Below, piece by piece: positions 1,657 through 44,587 of a stretch of DNA of 64,000 bases (the stretch's first letter is position 1; each line of letters begins with the position of its first letter). The DNA comes from Sulfurovum sp. AR (lineage in GTDB: Bacteria > Campylobacterota > Campylobacteria > Campylobacterales > Sulfurovaceae). The position numbers and the translations under genes were made by a program. A model generated the notes under the pieces. That model saw nothing but the letters and a program-made list of their open reading frames with translations, ran no database searches and was not told the origin of the DNA. Location: contig NZ_AJLE01000002.1 of the NCBI RefSeq assembly GCF_000296775.1, positions 186,001 through 250,000 of the forward strand, read 5' to 3'.

Positions 1657-3162
1657 TCAACGCTCAAAGAAAGCGGCTTTGAGTGCTTCGCGCACCTCCG
1701 ACAGCCGCCTTGCGAACCGATCGCGATCATGTTTGGATTCGATGCTGCGATCGGCCAGATCGGCAATATACTGCACCTGTTCGTCGAGTGCGCGTAAGTG
1801 ACTCAGTCTAACCGTGCGACTGGCGATGGTACCGATGGCGCTGAGCATTCGCGCCATAATGGCGACGTTGCCTGTGGCACTAGCCCGAATCTGATCGAAC
1901 GCCTCAGCCAACATACCCTCAAAGGTTGGAACGATGGCGATCAGGCGCAACGTTTCTCCCTCGTAACGGTTCGATGGCGGGAATTGCCGACAAGATAGCG
2001 AGGTCAGAATCGCTGTCAAATAATCCACACACATCACCGCCGTCGAGGTGTCATTAACACCGGGCGAAAGTGCCTTTAAGGCCATATCCACAATTTGCCT
2101 GATACCGAAAGCAGGATCTTGTTCAACCGTACGATGACGATTAATACTATAAGCCTCATTCAGGGTAGCAATCGTCTCCTGATCTGGTGGGTACGTCAGG
2201 GCGAGTGATACCAGTGCAGTATCTTGCACAACGAACGCTCCGATGCCGTGCTCCATCCGCACAATAGTTCTCCTGTCCTTCGCCAGGCTCAGGATAGCGT
2301 CATGATCTACGTTTTGTATATAGCCGCTCACCTTTGCCGGGACCGCGTACCAGGTTTTCTCATCCAGAGATGGAAGGAGTCGCTCGTTTTTTTCATCCTC
2401 GGCTTTATCGGCGGTGGTGTCCCGTTTTTCCGGGAACAACCGACTAATGGATGCGTTGGTTTCATGCGCAACAGAGGCTATAATGCTGGAAGCCTGAATC
2501 GACGAGGCGATGTGATGAATGAAAAAAATGAGGACGGCAATGCCAGAAAACACCAGAACAAATGCGAAAAATACCGCTAGGCTAGGCACAAATGGCGCAT
2601 CGCCAGTGCGTATAGCGTGCATCACAATCAAACAATAGACAAAAATTCCTGCAAAGGTCCCCAGCGTGACCTGTGTGACATGACTGCGCATGAAGTTCCG
2701 CAGAATGCGAGAGGTGTATTGGCTCGAAGCCAGCGCAAGTGCCAGCAGAGTCATGGAGAACGTGATGCCCATAACGGTCATCATCGAACCGGCAAGCGTT
2801 GATAACATATCGCGCGCGCCATCCGCCCCGACCCCAAATATCCGTGGCCACTGGGACAGCCATTGGTCACTCACGGAGTAGTCTATTTGAATCAACACTA
2901 CCGCGTAAACAACGCTGCTTAGGACGATCAAAAAAGGTAAAAACCAGAAGCTCGATCGTAGATTAGCCCAAAACTGTATTAACTTATTCATGATAAGGTA
3001 TGTGCCAACAACAAAACTGACAGCGCCAGTAATGTAGAATGTCATTATCTTCTCTGTATCTGAACCTGTCGTTATTTGTGAACCGACAAAACCAGATAAT
3101 TGATACCCCCATAATGCAAGGCCAAGACCTATAGCCACTAGACCAATACCAATAATTTTCAT
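1657..3162 (-). CDS. DUF3185-like domain fused to a DUF2254 membrane protein
   Basis: This 501-residue integral membrane protein has two parts. Residues 1 to about 60 form two transmembrane helices and read like a complete DUF3185 protein (start M-K-I-I-G-I-G, then the D-x-x-x-I-M-T-F-Y-I-T-G-A pattern). From about residue 64 a full DUF2254 protein follows, with further membrane helices to about residue 230 and a soluble C-terminal domain containing S-P-G-V-N-D-T-S-T-A. ATG 3162 is preferred over ATG 3180 because AGGA lies 6 bases before it and it matches the DUF3185 start. Base composition changes at the junction: the first about 200 bases are AT-rich like the neighbours, while the DUF2254 part is visibly GC-rich (for example 1680-1740). 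This suggests a horizontally acquired DUF2254 gene joined to a resident small gene. The function of both domains is unknown. Confidence 0.85.
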   Translation of the reverse strand: MKIIGIGLVAIGLGLALWGYQLSGFVGSQITTGSDTEKIMTFYITGAVSFVVGTYLIMNKLIQFWANLRSSFWFLPFLIVLSSVVYAVVLIQIDYSVSDQWLSQWPRIFGVGADGARDMLSTLAGSMMTVMGITFSMTLLALALASSQYTSRILRNFMRSHVTQVTLGTFAGIFVYCLIVMHAIRTGDAPFVPSLAVFFAFVLVFSGIAVLIFFIHHIASSIQASSIIASVAHETNASISRLFPEKRDTTADKAEDEKNERLLPSLDEKTWYAVPAKVSGYIQNVDHDAILSLAKDRRTIVRMEHGIGAFVVQDTALVSLALTYPPDQETIATLNEAYSINRHRTVEQDPAFGIRQIVDMALKALSPGVNDTSTAVMCVDYLTAILTSLSCRQFPPSNRYEGETLRLIAIVPTFEGMLAEAFDQIRASATGNVAIMARMLSAIGTIASRTVRLSHLRALDEQVQYIADLADRSIESKHDRDRFARRLSEVREALKAAFFER

Positions 3163-3180
3163 TGTAGTTCCTGAAGCCAT

Positions 3181-3508
3181 TGTTATGTTAAACCCCCATC
3201 GTTGAAAGAGACTAAATATTTTTATATCGTAGCTAACAGTTTAATTAACGAGACCCATTGTCTCATAATACATTCTTATACCTATAGTGTACCTAAAAAT
3301 TTACTTGTTATTAAGATCACCATCTCTTATCTTTTGTGTTGAATATGTAAACATAAGCTACTCAAATATGACGTAATGTTCTATTCACAATAAAAAAGAT
3401 TTGATTTAAAAATTTAAGTAGATCGTATTGTAGAGTAATTCTATTATGCGTTAGATCGGAGAACTTGGATTAGAATCTAGTTCTCCTGATTGTTAAAAGG
3501 GTGTTTAT
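3181..3508. other. Intergenic region between the DUF2254 and glycine-zipper genes
   Basis: About 330 AT-rich bases with no coding sequence I can support. It should hold the promoter of the DUF2254 gene. Near its right end is a hairpin (3458-3486) described separately. Confidence 0.5.
3458..3486 (-). terminator. Possible terminator of the glycine-zipper lipoprotein gene
   Basis: GGAGAACT (3458-3465) pairs with AGTTCTCC (3479-3486) around a 13-base loop, just past the end of the minus-strand lipoprotein gene. There is no clear T run, so the terminator role is inferred from position and stem strength. Confidence 0.4.
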
Positions 3509-3730
3509 CTATTTTGTGTCTTCGTAATATCCAACACCCGCACCTATAGCTGTACCAACGGCTGCTGATTTAAGTACTGAACGTCCAGATACGGCACCAA
3601 CTACTGCTCCAGTACCGGCTCCGATCAGAGCACCTTTTTGTGTTTTTGGGCCAGGCTGAGCACATCCCGACATCAATCCTACAACTGAAACAGCAACTAA
3701 CATCTTTTTAAAGTTTATACTTTTCATCAT
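3509..3730 (-). CDS. Small glycine-zipper lipoprotein
   Basis: This 73-residue protein has a short signal peptide ending in a lipobox-like L-M-S-G-C (acylated Cys about residue 23). A glycine-zipper region follows (G-A-L-I-G-A-G-T-G-A-V-V-G-A and A-V-G-T-A-I-G-A-G-V-G), typical of YMGG/Gly-zipper 2TM envelope proteins such as osmotically inducible lipoproteins. It probably sits in the envelope with the glycine helices packed in a membrane. Two Met codons begin the ORF, with GGAGAA directly upstream. It is one of five small or membrane genes on this strand between 1.6 and 5.1 kb. No enzymatic role is expected. Confidence 0.8.
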   Translation of the reverse strand: MMKSINFKKMLVAVSVVGLMSGCAQPGPKTQKGALIGAGTGAVVGAVSGRSVLKSAAVGTAIGAGVGYYEDTK

Positions 3731-3880
3731 TGTTCTCCTATTAGTTTAGATTAACTTATTATATCATTAATTTTTCTTCATTATCAAATCTTGAGTAAGT
3801 TATGTAGTCAGTCTTTAATTTCATTTTGGCTAACTATCAAATGAATGCCTGATCTACCTACTTATTCAAAAATACTCTAT

Positions 3881-4102
3881 TTAGCTTCGTCTGTTTCCAA
3901 AAAGCAAGATCAATCCACCTAATACTATGGCACCAGCACCAGCCCAAACTGGAATCTGTACCGTCTGTTTTTCTTCTACCGTCATCTCGACTGGTCCTAC
4001 CTTGATCGCATCTGTATCCTTAGTGTAGCTGAAACTGCTGTACGCTAAACCTAATGCACCGGCTATGATCAGTATGATCCCAAAAATTTTGATTGCATTC
4101 AT
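3881..4102 (-). CDS. Small two-helix membrane protein
   Basis: A 73-residue protein with transmembrane helices at about residues 5-24 and 50-68, joined by a 25-residue polar segment containing K-V-G-P-V-E-M-T-V-E-E-K. It ends in basic residues (N-R-R-S), placing that end in the cytoplasm by the positive-inside rule. I have seen similar short proteins in many proteobacteria, sometimes labelled DUF3185-like, but I cannot name the family with certainty. AGGAAG precedes the ATG at 4102. It neighbours the lmo0937-type gene and the glycine-zipper lipoprotein, which suggests a shared envelope-stress context. Confidence 0.75.
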   Translation of the reverse strand: MNAIKIFGIILIIAGALGLAYSSFSYTKDTDAIKVGPVEMTVEEKQTVQIPVWAGAGAIVLGGLILLFGNRRS

Positions 4103-34140: not shown

Positions 34141-35208
34141 CTATGCCTCTCCACCTCTCAACACGTCTAATACGTTTGTAGCGTATGAACCTTTAGGCAA
34201 TACAAAATTCAGTTCATAGTGGGCTTTTTCTTCGATATATGTTTTCTTAATATCCGTTACCTGTATCCAGGCATACCTTCTGGCACCATTGAGGTTTATC
34301 TCCTCAGCAAATGGTGATTCTATGAGACCTGCTGTACCTTCTGCTCTCTTTGTTTTTTTACCGGGAAGCAGTCCTGCAGGTGCGATGTCTTTTTCTGCAA
34401 AACGTTTGGCTTCTTCTTCCAGGTTCTCCACCGTAAATAAACGTCCGTAAGGATAGTGCATCATTACATCACCCTCTACCAGTTTGAAGAAGTTTGGCTG
34501 TGACTTTGTACCTTTGAGTGAGCCTTTGGGTAAGTTCAATACCTGCTCCGTTTCAGCTTCAGTGAACTTTTCAAGCAAGTGACTCAGTTCCATACGTTTT
34601 GAGAGCCATTGGTTGAAAAGATAGCTTTGGTAGGCACCCATCAAAAACTCTTTTGTTTTTCTGTCACGTATTTTCAGGCTTCCCTCTATCAGTTTTTTAC
34701 CATCTTCCCAGTTGTTTCCATCTGTCCCGAAACGTTGGTTTCCAAAGTAGTTTGGTACACCATTTTCGTCGATCCACTTCAGTACAGAATCCAGTTTGTC
34801 TTTTTGGACACCAAGCACTTTTTTCAGACGAATTTTGAAACGATTACCTTTCAGATGCCCTACACGTATCTTGTTATTGTGGAGGACCATAGAGAGGATC
34901 TTGATCTTATCATGTGAAAAGGCCTTTAACTTCTCCTCAAATTTCGCTGGCAAAGAGATGTACTGAATCGTCATAGCATGTTTGTCTTTTAACCCTGCAT
35001 ATCCCATGTCACGGCGTCGTATGCCTACATGGTTGGAAATGACATCAAGCATCTCCCATGTCGTCAACTCTTTTTTACGTACTTGAAGTACCAGATGTTC
35101 ACCCTCACCCGTAAACTCATACAGTGGTATCTCTTCAACAGTAAAGTCTCGAGGAGAAGAGTTAAATACAAATTCATTTTTGACGTTCAGTGGGTAGATT
35201 AGCTGCAT
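34141..35208 (-). CDS. truD: tRNA pseudouridine(13) synthase
   Basis: A 355-residue TruD, which isomerises U13 in certain tRNAs. The catalytic motif G-L-K-D-K-H-A is at about 77-83 (Asp80), preceded by R-R-D-M-G-Y-A; P-N-Y-F-G-N-Q-R-F-G near 150 and a TRUD insertion domain follow. Length is normal. The gene starts opposite gph with about 215 bases between them. Confidence 0.92.
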   Translation of the reverse strand: MQLIYPLNVKNEFVFNSSPRDFTVEEIPLYEFTGEGEHLVLQVRKKELTTWEMLDVISNHVGIRRRDMGYAGLKDKHAMTIQYISLPAKFEEKLKAFSHDKIKILSMVLHNNKIRVGHLKGNRFKIRLKKVLGVQKDKLDSVLKWIDENGVPNYFGNQRFGTDGNNWEDGKKLIEGSLKIRDRKTKEFLMGAYQSYLFNQWLSKRMELSHLLEKFTEAETEQVLNLPKGSLKGTKSQPNFFKLVEGDVMMHYPYGRLFTVENLEEEAKRFAEKDIAPAGLLPGKKTKRAEGTAGLIESPFAEEINLNGARRYAWIQVTDIKKTYIEEKAHYELNFVLPKGSYATNVLDVLRGGEA

Positions 35209-38162: not shown

Positions 38163-39005
38163 TTACTCTGTACTATTTTGAAAATGCTGGCTTTTACATG
38201 GATATCTGTCACTGTTTTTAGCCACTTTTGCAAAGACACTTAAAGGGGTATTGGTCTCTTCTGCTATTTTCATAACATCACTATAATGTTCAGGAGCGAA
38301 GCTTACAAGCATTTCATACTCTTCCCCGCTGTGCCCTATTTCAGGCGAAATTTCTTCAAATATATCAAATCCATATTTATTAATATCTAATAGTTTGTTC
38401 GTGTCACAATAGAGTCCGTCTGAAATGTCCATGCCCGTACGTAAAAAAGGTCTTGCACTCGCTATAAAGTCTGCCCTTAATGTAGGCTCGAAAAAGCGTG
38501 CATCATTGGCTATCTTTTCCCCTCTGAAAAGTGCATCAAGATTACGTTTGCTCTCTCCCAATGTTCCTGTATAGGCCAAGAGGTCCCCTACTTGTAAACC
38601 TGTACGCAGAAGCGGTGTATCGCTTTTGGAAATGATCGTAATAGAGAGATGTAGTTTGTCACCACCAATGGTATCTCCACCAATGATCTCGCAGTGGTAC
38701 TCTTTCGCTGTACTTTCCATACTCTGTATCAATTCATCTATCTCTGATTCTGTCATCGTCTTAGGGATAGAGACAGTGACGAGTGCAAACTGTGGCCGTG
38801 CATTCATAGCAATGGCATCAGAGAGATTGATAAGCATCGCTTTTCGACCTATCTGAGCGATGCTCATCCATTCACGCTTGAAATGTGTATCTTCAAAGAA
38901 GGCATCCATACTATAGAGTGTATCACCTATCACTGCAGCATCATCACCGATGTATTTTGAACTTAAAGAGTGAATAAGGTAGTGTTCTTTATCTTGTTTA
39001 GGCAT
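38163..39005 (-). CDS. thiL: Thiamine-monophosphate kinase
   Basis: A 280-residue ThiL (AIR-synthase-related fold), which makes thiamine diphosphate from thiamine monophosphate and ATP. Motifs: Y-I-G-D-D-A-A-V-I (18-26), M-D-A-F-F-E-D-T-H-F near 34-43, N-L-S-D-A-I-A-M-N-A and I-I-G-G-D-T-I-G-G, then G-M-D-I-S-D-G-L. Slightly shorter than the E. coli enzyme. ATG 39005 is preferred over 39089, since the upstream codons are not conserved-looking. No TPP riboswitch is seen. Confidence 0.9.
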   Translation of the reverse strand: MPKQDKEHYLIHSLSSKYIGDDAAVIGDTLYSMDAFFEDTHFKREWMSIAQIGRKAMLINLSDAIAMNARPQFALVTVSIPKTMTESEIDELIQSMESTAKEYHCEIIGGDTIGGDKLHLSITIISKSDTPLLRTGLQVGDLLAYTGTLGESKRNLDALFRGEKIANDARFFEPTLRADFIASARPFLRTGMDISDGLYCDTNKLLDINKYGFDIFEEISPEIGHSGEEYEMLVSFAPEHYSDVMKIAEETNTPLSVFAKVAKNSDRYPCKSQHFQNSTE

Positions 39006-39147
39006 AGTTTCTGTCCTTTGAGCACTTAAATCTTTAGAATTGGTAGAATTGTAACATAGTTCAAGTGTTTTAGCTTTAGTAAGAGTCAAATTGTCTCATT
39101 CATAGTTCTATAAGTTATACTAAACAATCTTTATTAAGGAAATACCT

Positions 39148-40206
39148 ATGTCATATAAACTTGAAATAAGAGCATTCTTTTTTAATGCTAAAACAGACTA
39201 TCTGCCTTACTACAAAAACTTCACTATCCATGTGAATGATGATGCAACAGCCAAAGACCTGCTGGTAAAGATACAAGAAGAGAACGAGAACTTCAGTTTT
39301 CCGAAACAAAAACTTCTTATGAAGATTAATGGTCTTGTTGTCGAGGCGAAGCAACCTGTTTCAGCTCTGGTGGAAAGACTTGGAACCTCTTTACAAATAG
39401 ATCCGGTAAACAGCTATCGTTCTAACGATGGACTGAAGATCAATGACAGTGACTTTATGAATAGTTTTGAACTTTTGGCTCCCTATGCTTCGGAATCAGA
39501 TCTAAAATACTACAAAACATTGTATGCACTTCACTATGCATCAGAAACAGAAAACTTTGACCGTGAGTACATCGGTGATGCAATACTCGTTCTGGCACAT
39601 AAAATGATCACAGAAGGCTCAGAGCATAAAGAAGCCATACTTGAAGCGGTCACTTCTGTGAACTCTGGACTCTTTGACTGTGAATATGAAAATAACCTCT
39701 TTAATGCGCAAGACCACAGTGCTGCGATCAATACGCTCAAAGCGATGGTCAAACCAGAAGAAGGCCCTTCTCTCTGTGCAAGACTTATGGCACGCTTTTC
39801 TAAAAAAGAGGTTGAAGTTTCTGTACCAAAAAGAGCAGCAGAGACGATTGAAAACCTGGAAGAGAAGCAGATTGCACATTATCATGGTCCAGCTTCCCAT
39901 GATACTATGCATAAGTTGATCGCTGACAGAGGTATGAAAGGTGTACACTTTTCAAGATCAGGAAAGCTTGCCGGACTCGGGATACTGGAAGAGAACAAAG
40001 ATCTCGCATTCAAAAAAGCAGGTGCCATACTTTTAGATGCCTATGACCATGGTGCAGAAGTGCTTGTTGTTGAAGATATTGACGTAATGGACATGTTCAA
40101 GAAAAACTTTTCTGCTATAGAAAGAACGATAGGTAGAAAGATGATAGGTCTAGAACTTATCTCTGCAAATGATTTTGTTTCGCAACTGAATTCTATCGCA
40201 GCATGA
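39148..40206 (+). CDS. DUF5644 protein: cluster-less SdhB-SdhE look-alike
   Basis: A 352-residue protein immediately before sdhA. Its first 200 residues follow SdhB from this locus: E-I-R-A-F-F-F-N-A-K-T-D-Y-L-P-Y matches I-K-A-F-R-F-N-A-E-T-D-Y-L-P-Y, and S-D-L-K-Y-Y-K-T-L-Y-A-L-H-Y matches S-D-L-C-I-Q-C-G-A-C-H-Y. Its last about 75 residues follow the SdhE end: A-G-A-I-L-L-D-A-Y-D-H-G-A-E-V-L-V matches A-G-N-A-L-L-D-A-M-D-N-N-A-D-L-M-V. Nearly all cluster Cys are replaced, so it cannot hold the usual iron-sulfur centres. A structural, assembly or regulatory partner of the complex is inferred. AAGGAAA lies upstream of the start. Confidence 0.85.
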   Translation: MSYKLEIRAFFFNAKTDYLPYYKNFTIHVNDDATAKDLLVKIQEENENFSFPKQKLLMKINGLVVEAKQPVSALVERLGTSLQIDPVNSYRSNDGLKINDSDFMNSFELLAPYASESDLKYYKTLYALHYASETENFDREYIGDAILVLAHKMITEGSEHKEAILEAVTSVNSGLFDCEYENNLFNAQDHSAAINTLKAMVKPEEGPSLCARLMARFSKKEVEVSVPKRAAETIENLEEKQIAHYHGPASHDTMHKLIADRGMKGVHFSRSGKLAGLGILEENKDLAFKKAGAILLDAYDHGAEVLVVEDIDVMDMFKKNFSAIERTIGRKMIGLELISANDFVSQLNSIAA

Positions 40207-40306
40207 TCAAAAGTAGCGTTGGCTGAATTGCCACGCTACGAAACACTACACCTCCCCAAATTTCATCACTTATACCAATTTCTAACGAAAATTAATGCTA
40301 AGAAGA

Positions 40307-40312
40307 TATAAT
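40307..40312 (+). promoter_or_regulatory. -10 element upstream of sdhA
   Basis: TATAAT in AGAAGATATAATAAAG, about 38 bases before the sdhA start and about 100 bases after the DUF5644 stop, so the sdhABE genes can be transcribed independently. Confidence 0.5.
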
Positions 40313-40345
40313 AAAGCCAAATTGTAACAAAAGGATATGGATACT

Positions 40346-42073
40346 ATGAGCAAAAACTCAGATATTAAAATCTACGAATATGACGCAGTCATCGTTGGTT
40401 CTGGACTCGCTGGACTTGCAGCAGCGAAAGAGTTGACAGAAGCAGGGAAAAAGACAGCGGTCATTACAAAACTTCACCCATTAAGATCTCACTCAGGTGC
40501 AGCACAAGGTGGAATCAACGCTGCTCTTGGTAAAGATGATTCTACAGAACTTCATGAGTTTGACACGGTGAAAGGTTCTGACTATCTTGCAGACCAGGAT
40601 TGCGTTGAATTGATGTGTACAAAAGCTCCTGAGACTATCAGATGGGCAGAGAGAATGGGAGCTGTATTCTCAAGAAATGAAGAAGGTAATATTGCTATCA
40701 GACCTTTTGGTGGACAGTCTCAACCTAGAGCATGTTATGCAAAAGACAGAACAGGACTTACACTGCTTCAGACTATTTATGAACAGGCATTCCGTGCAGG
40801 TGTAGAGATATTTGATGAGTGGTATGCTGCTGATCTTCTTTATGAAGATGGAAAAGTATCTGGTGTTGCTGCGTATAATATCCGTAACTCAGAACCGGCT
40901 ATATTCAATGCAAAGGTGACGATGTTCGCTACAGGTGGTCATGCCAGAGCCTATAGATTTAACTCAAATGCACATGCAAATACAGGTGACTCACTTTCTA
41001 TCGTAGCACGTCACGGTCTTCCTCTAGAAGATATGGAATTTGTTCAGTTCCACCCAAGTGGACTTGGTGGTTCAGGTGTACTTATCTCAGAAGCGGCGCG
41101 TGGTGAAGGTGGTCGTCTTTTTAACTCTGAAGGTGAAAGATTTATGAGCAAGTATGCACCAAACGCTATGGAACTTGCTTCACGTGACGTTGTATCCAGA
41201 GCTATTATGGAAGAGGTACGTCAAGGTAGAGGTGTAGGTAAAGATGGTCAGTCAGTGAACATTGACCTTACGCATCTTGATCCTGAGATCATCTTGACAC
41301 GTCTTCCGGAGCTACGTGAACTTGCTATTGCCTTCCAAGGGCAGGATATGCTTAAAGAGCCTATTCATATCTCGGCAACAGCACACTACTCTATGGGTGG
41401 TATTCCTGTAAATATCAACTGTCAGGTTCGTAAAAATCCAAGAGAATTGGTAGAAGGTTTCTATGCGGCCGGTGAGTGTTCATGTGTATCGGTGCATGGA
41501 GCGAATCGTTTGGGTGCAAACTCAGTGCTTGAAGCCCTACTTTTTGGTCGTCATGCAGGTGAAAACATGATCAAGGCACTTGATGAAGGTATAGAGTTAC
41601 GTAAAGCCTCTGCTTCAGATGCAAACAGAATGATCGAAGAGATGCACAAGATCAAAACTTCAAACGGTATTGAAACAGTTCCTGGACTCAGAACTGAACT
41701 TCAAAACGGGATGACTGCAGATGCAGGTGTATTTAGAAGCAAAGAGTCTTTAGAGAGACAAATAGCACTTATCGATAACTTGTTGGAAAGATTTAATAAT
41801 ATTCGTATTGATGACAAGTCAGATACCTATAATACAGACCTTCAAGAAGCTTTAGAACTTGGACATATGTTAGAGTTCTCCAAGTTCATTGTTGTGGGAG
41901 CACTTAACAGAGAAGAGAGCCGTGGCGGACACTACCGTGAAGACTTCCCTAAGAGAGATGATGAAAGATTCCTCAAACATACCTATGCATATATGGATAA
42001 AGATTTTAACATTACTCAAGAATGGGGTGATGTAGTGCTTGGTAAGTTTGAGCCTAAAGAAAGAACATATTAA
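40346..42073 (+). CDS. sdhA: Succinate dehydrogenase/fumarate reductase flavoprotein
   Basis: A 575-residue flavoprotein subunit interconverting succinate and fumarate. FAD motif [10 protein letters not shown] near residues 19-28; the covalent-FAD His in [11 protein letters not shown]; substrate-site A-R-G-E-G-G-R-L-F and [10 protein letters not shown]-terminal [13 protein letters not shown] 40346 is chosen because AAGGA then lies 10 bases away, against 1 base for 40337. There is no twin-arginine signal, so unlike periplasmic MfrA of relatives it should face the cytoplasm. In an autotroph it may run as fumarate reductase in the reductive TCA cycle. Confidence 0.9.
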
Positions 42074-42083
42074 GGAGGTCATG

Positions 42084-43073
42084 ATGAGTGAAACAAGAAA
42101 AGTAACAATAAAAGCATTCAGATTTAATGCTGAAACAGACTATCTTCCATATACAAAACAGTATGAAATGGAAGTAGGAAAAGATGATTTGATCCTTGAC
42201 CTTATGAACAGAATTAAATGGGAACATGATGGAAGTTTCTCTTATAGACGTTCTTGCCGTCATGGTATCTGTGGTGCCTGTGCCATTAAGGTTAATGGTA
42301 AAGCAGTGCTTGCTTGTAAACAAAATGCGATTGAACTCTTAGACCTTTTTGATAATGATATTACACTTGAGCCAAGTTCGAAGAAACGTGCGATCAAAGA
42401 TATGATCATTGACAAATCAGATTTCTGGGAAAAACATGCGGCGATCAAGCCTTATGTCGTTGCAGATGTTGAGCCTCATCCAACACATGAGACAAAACAG
42501 TCTATTTCTGAGTTCAATAACTTCTTGGATTCAGATCTTTGTATCCAATGTGGTGCGTGTCACTACTCTTGTCCTGCACTTGAAGTGAACCCGGACTTCT
42601 TCGGACCGGCTGCCTTTGCTGCGGCATATAGATTTACTGTAGATACCAGAGACACTGCTGGTGCAGAACGTCTGGAGTTGACGGCACAACCAAGTCAAGG
42701 TGTCTGGGACTGTGTGAAATGTTATGAATGTGCAGAAGCATGTCCAAAAGAGATCAATCCTATAGAGAAGATCGGAAAACTTCACAATATGCAGTTTGAA
42801 CAGGGTATCGCTGAGAGTAACGTTGCAACACGTCACGCAGAAGGCTTCCTTAGAGGTATGAAAAAATATGGTTATCTTGATGAGGCAGATATTGTTACCT
42901 ATTCTGAAGGCTTACTTGGTGCAGCTAAACACATAGGTACAGCAATGAAAATGATGAAAAGCGGTAAAATTCATTGGCATTCAGGAGTACCGTTCATAGA
43001 CAGTATTCCTAAGATCAAAAACCTAGATGAAGTTCAAAAACTGATTGAAATTTCACAAACAAATAAACTGTAA
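42084..43073 (+). CDS. sdhB: Succinate dehydrogenase/fumarate reductase iron-sulfur subunit
   Basis: A 329-residue electron-transfer subunit. The [2Fe-2S] domain has Y-R-R-S-C-R-H-G-I-C-G-A-C and a later Cys (V-L-A-C-K). The second domain has C-I-Q-C-G-A-C-H-Y-S-C-P and C-V-K-C-Y-E-C-A-E-A-C-P, ligands for two further clusters. It is longer than E. coli SdhB, as in SdhE-type complexes. ATG 42084 follows AAGGAGGT at 4 bases; 42081 would be too close. It begins 11 bases after sdhA. Confidence 0.92.
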   Translation: MSETRKVTIKAFRFNAETDYLPYTKQYEMEVGKDDLILDLMNRIKWEHDGSFSYRRSCRHGICGACAIKVNGKAVLACKQNAIELLDLFDNDITLEPSSKKRAIKDMIIDKSDFWEKHAAIKPYVVADVEPHPTHETKQSISEFNNFLDSDLCIQCGACHYSCPALEVNPDFFGPAAFAAAYRFTVDTRDTAGAERLELTAQPSQGVWDCVKCYECAEACPKEINPIEKIGKLHNMQFEQGIAESNVATRHAEGFLRGMKKYGYLDEADIVTYSEGLLGAAKHIGTAMKMMKSGKIHWHSGVPFIDSIPKIKNLDEVQKLIEISQTNKL

Positions 43074-43082
43074 GGAGAAAAG

Positions 43083-43976
43083 ATGAGCGAACAATTACAC
43101 TATGCATTATTTACAGGATGTACTGCTAAGCAATCTACACCTGAGTTACTTTCATCTACACTTGCAGTAGCTGATAAGTTGGGTATCAAGATCACTATAT
43201 TGGAAGAAGCGAGTTGTTGTGGTGCGAGTCACTTGCAAGATTTCGATGAGTTCCTGGCCCATGTACTGAACGCTAGAAACATCTGTTATGCAGAAAAACT
43301 GGGTCTTACGATGATCACTATCTGTAATACATGTCAGCTAAACTCTGCAATGACAAAACATGCACTTGACACTGACCCGGAACTTAAAGCTAGAGTCAAC
43401 GAAAAACTTGCAGAAGTTGGACTTGAGTACAAAGGTACATCTGAGATCAAACACTTCCTCTATACACTGATCGATGAGTATGGTTTAGAAAATGTTAAAG
43501 ATAAGGTACAAGTACCACTTAGTCACTTAAACATAGCACCATTCTATGGTTGTCATAATATCAGACCATCTGAACTTCATGAAGAAGCTAATGGACATGA
43601 AAACCCATATAACCCTACTTCACTTGATAGTTTGATAGATGCATTAGAGGGTAACCCGGTGAATTATGAGAGTAAGAACAAGTGTTGTGGTTTCCACGTA
43701 GAACTTCAAGCAAACCATACTTCTGAAGTATTGGCCGGTAATGCCCTACTGGATGCTATGGATAACAATGCAGACCTCATGGTTACACCATGTCCACTCT
43801 GTCACTTAAAGATGGATACTTATCAAGACAGTATAGGGAAAGTGATGGGTCGTGACGTAGAACTTCCAGTACTACATATGCCTCAAATGGTTGCTTTGGC
43901 TCTTGGATGTACAGAAAAAGAGATCGGACTTAATTTCCACGTTCAAAAAGCGAAACACCTTTATACCGCTTCATAG
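43083..43976 (+). CDS. sdhE: SdhE-type membrane-associating subunit with two CCG domains
   Basis: A 297-residue protein of the heterodisulfide-reductase subunit B family. Two cysteine-rich CCG domains are visible: E-A-S-C-C-G-A ... C-N-T-C-Q in the first half and K-N-K-C-C-G-F ... P-C-P-L-C-H in the second, which bind cubane clusters in relatives. In SdhABE complexes this subunit replaces the transmembrane SdhC/D anchor and passes electrons to or from the quinone. It starts 10 bases after sdhB with AAGGAG upstream. Confidence 0.9.
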   Translation: MSEQLHYALFTGCTAKQSTPELLSSTLAVADKLGIKITILEEASCCGASHLQDFDEFLAHVLNARNICYAEKLGLTMITICNTCQLNSAMTKHALDTDPELKARVNEKLAEVGLEYKGTSEIKHFLYTLIDEYGLENVKDKVQVPLSHLNIAPFYGCHNIRPSELHEEANGHENPYNPTSLDSLIDALEGNPVNYESKNKCCGFHVELQANHTSEVLAGNALLDAMDNNADLMVTPCPLCHLKMDTYQDSIGKVMGRDVELPVLHMPQMVALALGCTEKEIGLNFHVQKAKHLYTAS

Positions 43977-44200: not shown

Positions 44201-44587
44201 ATGCCAAAAATCAACAAATACCAAGACATTTCAGAAATCGATAGAGAAGCGAAAAAAGACCTTATCGACAGACACTCTCCATTCATTCACTGTGCAGATA
44301 CTGCAAAAGCTGGTGAGCCGTTTGAAGTAACAGTAAAAATGGGTAACGAGTATACTCACCCAGATGACTTTGATCACTTTATCGAGTCTGTAACACTTTT
44401 CGATGGTGATACACAACTTGCAAAAGCTACATATGTACCAGGAACTCTTGGTAACACAAAAGCGCACAACACAACTACATTCACTATCATCCCAACAGGT
44501 AAAAAACTTAAGCTTAACGCTCACGGTTACTGTACTAAACACGGTATCTGGGAAGGTACTGAAAAAGAAGTAACAGTAGAAGCGTAA
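44201..44587 (+). CDS. Superoxide reductase (class II, neelaredoxin-like)
   Basis: A 128-residue cytoplasmic protein that reduces superoxide to peroxide at a non-haem iron. All centre ligands are visible: His in D-R-H-S-P-F-I (about 26), two His in Y-T-H-P-D-D-F-D-H-F-I (about 51 and 57), and Cys-His in G-Y-C-T-K-H-G-I-W (about 112-115). The N-terminal desulforedoxin Cys4 domain is absent, making it class II. It has its own strong promoter and terminator directly after the oxygen-sensitive SdhABE genes. Codon use is very regular, suggesting high expression. Confidence 0.92.
   Translation: MPKINKYQDISEIDREAKKDLIDRHSPFIHCADTAKAGEPFEVTVKMGNEYTHPDDFDHFIESVTLFDGDTQLAKATYVPGTLGNTKAHNTTTFTIIPTGKKLKLNAHGYCTKHGIWEGTEKEVTVEA

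Follow-up and report, generated by a model that had tools for sequence, protein, structure and literature searches.

Directly upstream of sdhA in Sulfurovum sp. AR lies a gene whose product resembles two iron-sulfur subunits of the neighboring SdhABE complex joined in one chain, but without the cysteines that hold the clusters. The question raised by this locus is what such a protein is and which function it has been kept for. It was analyzed in a window of 64,000 nucleotides (contig NZ_AJLE01000002.1, positions 186,001 to 250,000), to which all coordinates refer. The protein, termed the mimic in the following, is one of a family of SdhB-SdhE paralogues without clusters ("pseudo-SdhBE", 3KWL-type) that is found in Campylobacterales. 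It is an old duplicate of two electron-carrying respiratory-enzyme parts and probably serves a task that needs their shape but not their electrons.

Sequence similarity and predicted fold

The first-pass annotation of the locus had assigned about 200 N-terminal residues of the mimic to SdhB and its C-terminus to the second CCG domain of SdhE, and both assignments were confirmed. BLASTP comparison with the window's own SdhB yielded 30% identity over 145 amino acids at the N-terminus (E value 2e-15). For the window's own SdhE, no BLASTP similarity was obtained (best E value 2.5), so that profiles and fold comparison were needed. A profile of true SdhE proteins matched residues 248–308 of the mimic (E value 8e-4; 1.4e-3 with a second set), and a profile of separately encoded pseudo-SdhE genes matched residues 250–338 (E value 3e-15). 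Regarding specificity, only one of 448 other open reading frames at the same loci reached an E value below 0.1 with either profile, and this was a genuine pseudo-SdhE (locus L081). By sequence, the assignment of the SdhE part is the weaker of the two, because the true-SdhE profile alone detects (E value < 1e-3) only 25 of 34 fused proteins and 28 of the 56 rows of alignment A7. Comparison of the family with SdhB and HdrB proteins also provided matches on both sides: a profile of the SdhB part retrieved the Helicobacter pylori crystal structure 3KWL (E value 7e-55) and Escherichia coli FrdB (2.6e-8), and the pseudo-SdhE profile retrieved HdrB (5ODC, 1e-21) and again 3KWL (4e-17).

Curated models reach the mimic to a lesser degree. 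The label DUF5644 (PF18712), given in the first-pass annotation, is marginal for the window protein, which scores 14.2 bits and thus remains below the gathering threshold of 25; it holds for several relatives, since five of eight with an SdhB-like part pass this threshold (e.g., 154.5 bits in L095 and 40.7 bits in L037). Of ten proteins tested for the SdhB-type domain Fer2_3, one (L081) exceeded the cut-off and six others had matches below it, and the mimic stayed below the cut-offs of the NCBIfam SdhB/FrdB models (best NF009051, 19.9 bits vs. a cut-off of 333).

An AlphaFold2 model of the monomeric mimic was built from 56 sequences, with a mean predicted local distance difference test (pLDDT) value of 93.7. 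Its top Foldseek match was 3KWL (E value 2.5e-14), followed by SdhB and FrdB chains (E values from 1e-9). In VIA-align comparisons, the model aligned with 3KWL over 336 residues (Z 24.1, 4.3 Å). Residues 1–204 aligned best, among the FrdB/SdhB chains, with Wolinella succinogenes FrdB (Z 17.3, 2.7 Å, 194 aligned), and residues 230–352 with HdrB (Z 12.7, 3.0 Å, 118 aligned; range of Z for HdrB 12.3–12.7). The predicted model accordingly contains the two-domain SdhB/FrdB fold (ferredoxin-like plus helical) and, behind it, a single domain of the CCG fold of SdhE/HdrB. Ubiquitin-like folds were matched as well (VIA Z 7–8), which was read as a common fold. An objection that the mimic might be folded unlike SdhB and SdhE does therefore not apply.

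Loss of the cluster ligands

All 22 true SdhB proteins compared carry 12 of 12 ligand cysteines, and these are also complete in the SdhB of the window. Among 101 mimics, 35 retain none of the twelve and 66 retain one. Since 55 rows of alignment A7 bias this set towards Sulfurovum, counts for the 46 other rows are given in parallel. The four positions of the [2Fe-2S] cluster are occupied by cysteine in none of the 101 mimics, and two of the four fall in a stretch that is deleted in every one of them. From the eight cysteines of the two C-terminal clusters, at most one is retained in any mimic. The residual cysteine mostly corresponds to SdhB Cys210 (58 of 101; 7 of 46); in the window protein it is Cys178, the one FDC motif that the first-pass annotation had noticed among otherwise replaced cluster cysteines. 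The position of Cys153 is taken by tyrosine in 86 of 101 mimics (33 of 46) and that of Cys163 by serine in 92 of 101 (37 of 46), and such conserved replacements fit a repacked core better than decay.

The SdhE-like parts show the same loss. Within 100 pseudo-SdhE parts, 81 retain none and 19 retain one of the 12 CCG cysteines; the ligand positions of the first CCG domain are gaps in 72 to 89 of the 100, this domain being missing from most fused forms. Because the cluster ligands are missing, established chemistry predicts that the mimic cannot wire electrons.

Range, origin and selection of the family

The true extent of the family is larger than the first-pass annotation of this single locus had stated. 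Both halves were present in all 46 proteins examined (a set excluding the mimic of L097), in 34 as one fused protein and in 12 as two adjacent genes, and some relatives possess a whole SdhE-like part. Within the genus, a copy matching at least 326 residues was detected in 23 of 36 genomes, many of which are incomplete assemblies. The SdhB-like part was found in 123 of 298 genomes of the order Campylobacterales. In a phylum-wide sample that overlaps with the former, 224 of 377 genomes were positive, all of them from Campylobacterales; this count does not tell how many of the 153 negative genomes belong to other orders. Genomes were regarded as positive at E values of 3.4e-44 or lower. Matches with a longer SdhB span begin at 5e-41 and, among the matches listed, E values extend to approximately 1e-36. 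Weaker mimics were thus counted as negative, e.g., that of G038, which is split over two contigs.

In phylogenetic trees of both parts, the mimics form one clade (support 100/100 in each). The tree of the SdhB part places them with the SdhB of SdhABE against MfrB with a support of only 83/64, and the tree of the SdhE part places them with the SdhE of SdhABE against MfrE (100/100). The position of pseudo-SdhE inside SdhE is weak (85/74), and the exact attachment point of the mimics is unsure because their branches are long. From one tree, eight of the 82 rows were omitted as near-duplicate or odd, and from the other three SdhE rows. Judged from these sequence comparisons, the mimic most likely arose as a copy of the sdhB-sdhE genes of SdhABE rather than of Mfr or Frd subunits.

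Purifying selection was evident in the pairs tested. Ratios of nonsynonymous to synonymous substitution rates (dN/dS) were 0.11–0.14 in five close pairs according to NG86, and YN00 yielded values of 0.12 and 0.05 in two of these pairs. Frames were free of stops in 122 of 123 matches counted, spanning 10 families. The mimic diverges faster than the sdh genes: among the 12 loci listed, identity to the window is 60–76% for the mimic vs. 82–97% for SdhA, SdhB and SdhE. Internal stops were observed in the SdhB-like mimics of G452 (family f10, genus g31; two stops) and G307 (f20, g36; one stop), which are likely broken copies or assembly errors.

Co-occurrence with complex II

Mimic genes had been expected to accompany sdhABE, but they occur widely without it. 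Among the 123 mimic genomes, 35 encode a true SdhE and 92 encode FrdB; 84 possess FrdB without SdhE, 27 SdhE only, eight both and four neither. Thus, 88 of 123 mimic genomes are devoid of true SdhE, and 127 of 162 SdhE genomes are devoid of the mimic, by which the distribution is ruled out as support for a tie to SdhABE. For these counts, true SdhE was defined by an E value of 3.4e-75 or lower, a cut or diverged SdhE being counted as missing (e.g., in G136), FrdB was used as the single marker standing for FrdCAB, and the Fisher tests applied ignore kinship. In several f1 (g23/g24) and f4 genomes, the best-matching piece of true SdhE covers residues 4 to approximately 170–176 within a frame of 323–341 amino acids, as if an insertion were present near residue 170.

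Among the 175 mimic-less genomes of the order, 127 encode SdhE, 55 FrdB, and 20 neither. Three of the four mimic genomes with neither marker are affected by their assemblies: G136 has sdhB, an SdhA and an SdhE that is cut by a contig end; in G280, an SdhA piece lies on the mimic's contig at the contig end; and the assembly of G274 is 65% complete. The fourth, G140, is considered below.

The Pfam family of the Sdh5-type flavinylation factor had no match in the 298 genomes of the order, and a control search detected it in E. coli and Caulobacter. The motif HSGAAQGG, the histidine of which is presumably the covalent flavin adenine dinucleotide (FAD) site, was found in 20 of 20 SdhA loci examined. 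Flavin attachment was also considered as the reason for keeping the mimic and was rejected, as seven of these 20 loci come from mimic-less genomes; together with the numerous SdhE and FrdB genomes without a mimic, this indicates that the protein seems unneeded for attachment of the flavin.

Gene neighborhood

The arrangement at the locus is summarized in Table 1; the mimic indeed precedes sdhA on the same strand, as first described.

Table 1. Features at and around the mimic gene in the window.
Feature	Position	Strand	Characteristics
truD (tRNA pseudouridine(13) synthase)	34141..35208	-	NF002154 above cut-off
thiL (thiamine-phosphate kinase)	38163..39089	-	NF004354 above cut-off; divergent neighbor of the mimic
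mimic (cluster-free SdhB-SdhE)	39148..40206	+	352 amino acids; residues 1–204 SdhB-like, 230–352 like second CCG domain of SdhE/HdrB
hairpin in mimic-sdhA spacer	40213..40239	+	-16.7 kcal/mol, z -3.8; without T-run
TATAAT	40307..40312	+	25 bases upstream of the sdhA start
sdhA	40337..42073	+	flavoprotein with HSGAAQGG motif
sdhB	42084..43073	+	12/12 cluster cysteines
sdhE	43083..43976	+	HdrB-like; two CCG matches
desulfoferrodoxin/superoxide-reductase-type (SOR-like) gene	44201..44587	+	PF01880 above gathering threshold

A recurrent order consisting of truD, thiL and, divergently, mimic-sdhA-sdhB-sdhE and the SOR-like gene was seen in L090 and in the window, where truD lies approximately 4 kb away. 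Over 47 loci, thiL-like neighbors were counted 22 times (8 families), truD-like 22 times, SdhA-type 15 times (7 families) and SOR-like nine times, the latter recurring by the pseudo-SdhB/SdhE pair or by sdhABE in five families. The mimic adjoins sdhA in five families (f1, f6, f8 with one locus, f14 and f16); in the f14 locus L033, the overlap between both amounts to 1 or 4 bases, depending on the start codon chosen. In f10, thiL adjoins the mimic in six of eight loci and sdhABE was found in none of the eight within the stretch. Three of the five f20 loci (L037, L070, L071) carry pseudo-SdhB, pseudo-SdhE and the SOR-like gene without sdhABE in between. A lone SdhA-like flavoprotein of approximately 550–600 amino acids was also observed in this family (L037, positions 2306–3994 there, and 15 other f20 g20 genomes, i.e., 16 genomes of one genus). 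It lies 4–6 kb from the pair, points towards it and matches TIGR01812 with E values of 1e-146 to 1e-152, below the cut-off.

Among 63 named loci, mostly labelled Sulfurovum and including short contigs, 45 have mimic and sdhA on one strand. The gap between both genes has a median of 160 bases in these, with one gap of 2544 bases, and sdhA is located upstream in three. The congener G033 has kept thiL and sdhABE; there, thiL and sdhA are separated by 116 bases that contain no mimic.

The spacers between mimic and sdhA (window positions 40207–40336 and 38 other named loci) contain hairpins of dissimilar sequence followed by TATAAT. In 29 of the 39 spacers, the exact hexamer occurs within the final 75 bases, compared with a mean of 5.4 and a maximum of 12 in shuffles. 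A TAACA[CAT] box approximately 105 bases upstream of sdhA was observed in many spacers; the spacer of the window does not have it at this distance. By its sequence features, the spacer is a possible candidate site of sdhABE regulation. A scan for promoter consensus sequences listed neither the hairpins nor TATAAT and returned fewer promoter-like sites than shuffles (7 vs. 14.5). Co-transcription of the mimic with sdhABE in the window's genus was also considered and is doubtful, since hairpins and TATAAT intervene.

Possible roles of the mimic

A task based on shape rather than on electrons is suggested because the cluster places were lost and the protein is yet kept under selection in many species. 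One tentative proposal is a non-redox scaffold docking to complex-II-type flavoproteins in general, i.e., to SdhA or FrdA, whichever is present, and not a dedicated part of SdhABE. Pseudo-SdhBE would be a stable structure still able to dock to these flavoproteins; it might, e.g., hold a free flavoprotein, mature it or protect it until pseudo-SdhBE is displaced by the genuine iron-sulfur subunit. Descent of the mimic, its position next to sdhA in five families and the missing Sdh5 match argue for such an action on complex-II flavoproteins. In a narrower and rather unlikely version, the electron-dead SdhB+SdhE arm would act as a placeholder that binds free SdhA or FrdA and aids maturation, having arisen beside SdhABE and having been kept when FrdCAB replaced it, H. 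pylori included. Several observations weigh against docking to complex-II flavoproteins. In SdhB, the [2Fe-2S] loop faces the flavoprotein, and this loop is deleted in the mimics. SdhE or FrdB is present without a mimic in 155 genomes, and the HSGAAQGG motif likewise occurs in SdhA of seven genomes lacking the mimic. Nearly all genomes of the order possess complex II, only 24 of 298 having neither marker by the cuts used, so that co-occurrence with it is weak evidence. Moreover, G140, reported to be 99% complete, harbors an intact pair, and SdhE, SdhB, FrdB and SdhA/FrdA were not found in it, only NadB.

Put on a par with the complex-II scaffold, and equally tentative, is a neofunctionalised scaffold without a link to complex II, in which the duplicated SdhB-SdhE pair now binds another partner. 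Retention of the mimic in the many genomes without true SdhE and in G140 fits this explanation, as do the faster evolution of the mimic and the higher frequency of thiL-like than of SdhA-type neighbors. The recurrent thiL, truD and SOR-like genes would be the only leads to such a partner; however, their conservation may reflect inherited order only, the orientation of thiL relative to the mimic varies between loci, and the G140 assembly is fragmented (110 contigs). The first-pass annotation had suggested, as possibilities, a pseudo-subunit, decoy or assembly template of the neighboring SdhABE. In the trees both halves do resemble duplicates of the complex's own SdhB and SdhE, and sdhA commonly lies on the mimic's strand, but the distribution over genomes, the promoter-like site of sdhA's own and the congener without a mimic make this role improbable, and it is already largely refuted. 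Least probable by far is a decaying remnant without function: broken copies exist and many genomes are free of the mimic, but low dN/dS values, stop-free frames across families and conserved replacements at the ligand sites contradict decay.

An electron-transfer subunit pair that has lost its ligands and is still kept together and selected across much of an order is, in our judgement, unusual. If the placeholder function were true, the mimic would aid flavoprotein maturation in bacteria whose genomes gave no match to the known flavinylation factor. The finding also turns an annotation of "function unknown" into a testable question on complex II.

Comparison with known systems

Already known are the crystal structure 3KWL of an H. 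pylori hypothetical protein and the Pfam names DUF5644 and HdrB-like_C for pieces of the family. A description as a cluster-free SdhB-SdhE copy was not found in a literature search of limited coverage, in which family name and gene were barely mentioned. By species, length and DUF5644 name, 3KWL presumably represents HP0468. HP0468 appears as a table row among genes kept in Helicobacter with sheathed flagella (PMC9570263) and as a hypothetical protein associated in a gastric-cancer genome-wide association study and reported to increase during growth driven by hydrogen (PMC6090961), and 3KWL appears as a table row (PMC3397514).

The flavinylation factor Sdh5/SdhE(YgfY) would be a functional analogue only, provided that the assembly reading is right; the Pfam search of the mimic did not return it, and neither did that of the 298 genomes of the order. 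SdhB/FrdB of complex II share the fold over residues 1–204 and recognizable sequence identity with the mimic, which differs from them in that the ligand sets of all three clusters are missing. SdhE/HdrB align with residues 230–352, and full-length pseudo-SdhE matches HdrB by profile; they differ by their CCG cysteines, lost in the mimics, and by their first domain, missing from the window protein. The closest known system is 3KWL, which belongs to the same family according to profile and structure comparisons and which is matched end to end by the Helicobacter-type member of L095, its near relative (E value 1e-279). With 495 amino acids, 3KWL/HP0468 comprises the whole SdhE-like part, whereas the window mimic has the second domain only. 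With these results, the crystallized H. pylori protein, the function of which is unknown, acquires an identity in terms of both structure and evolution.

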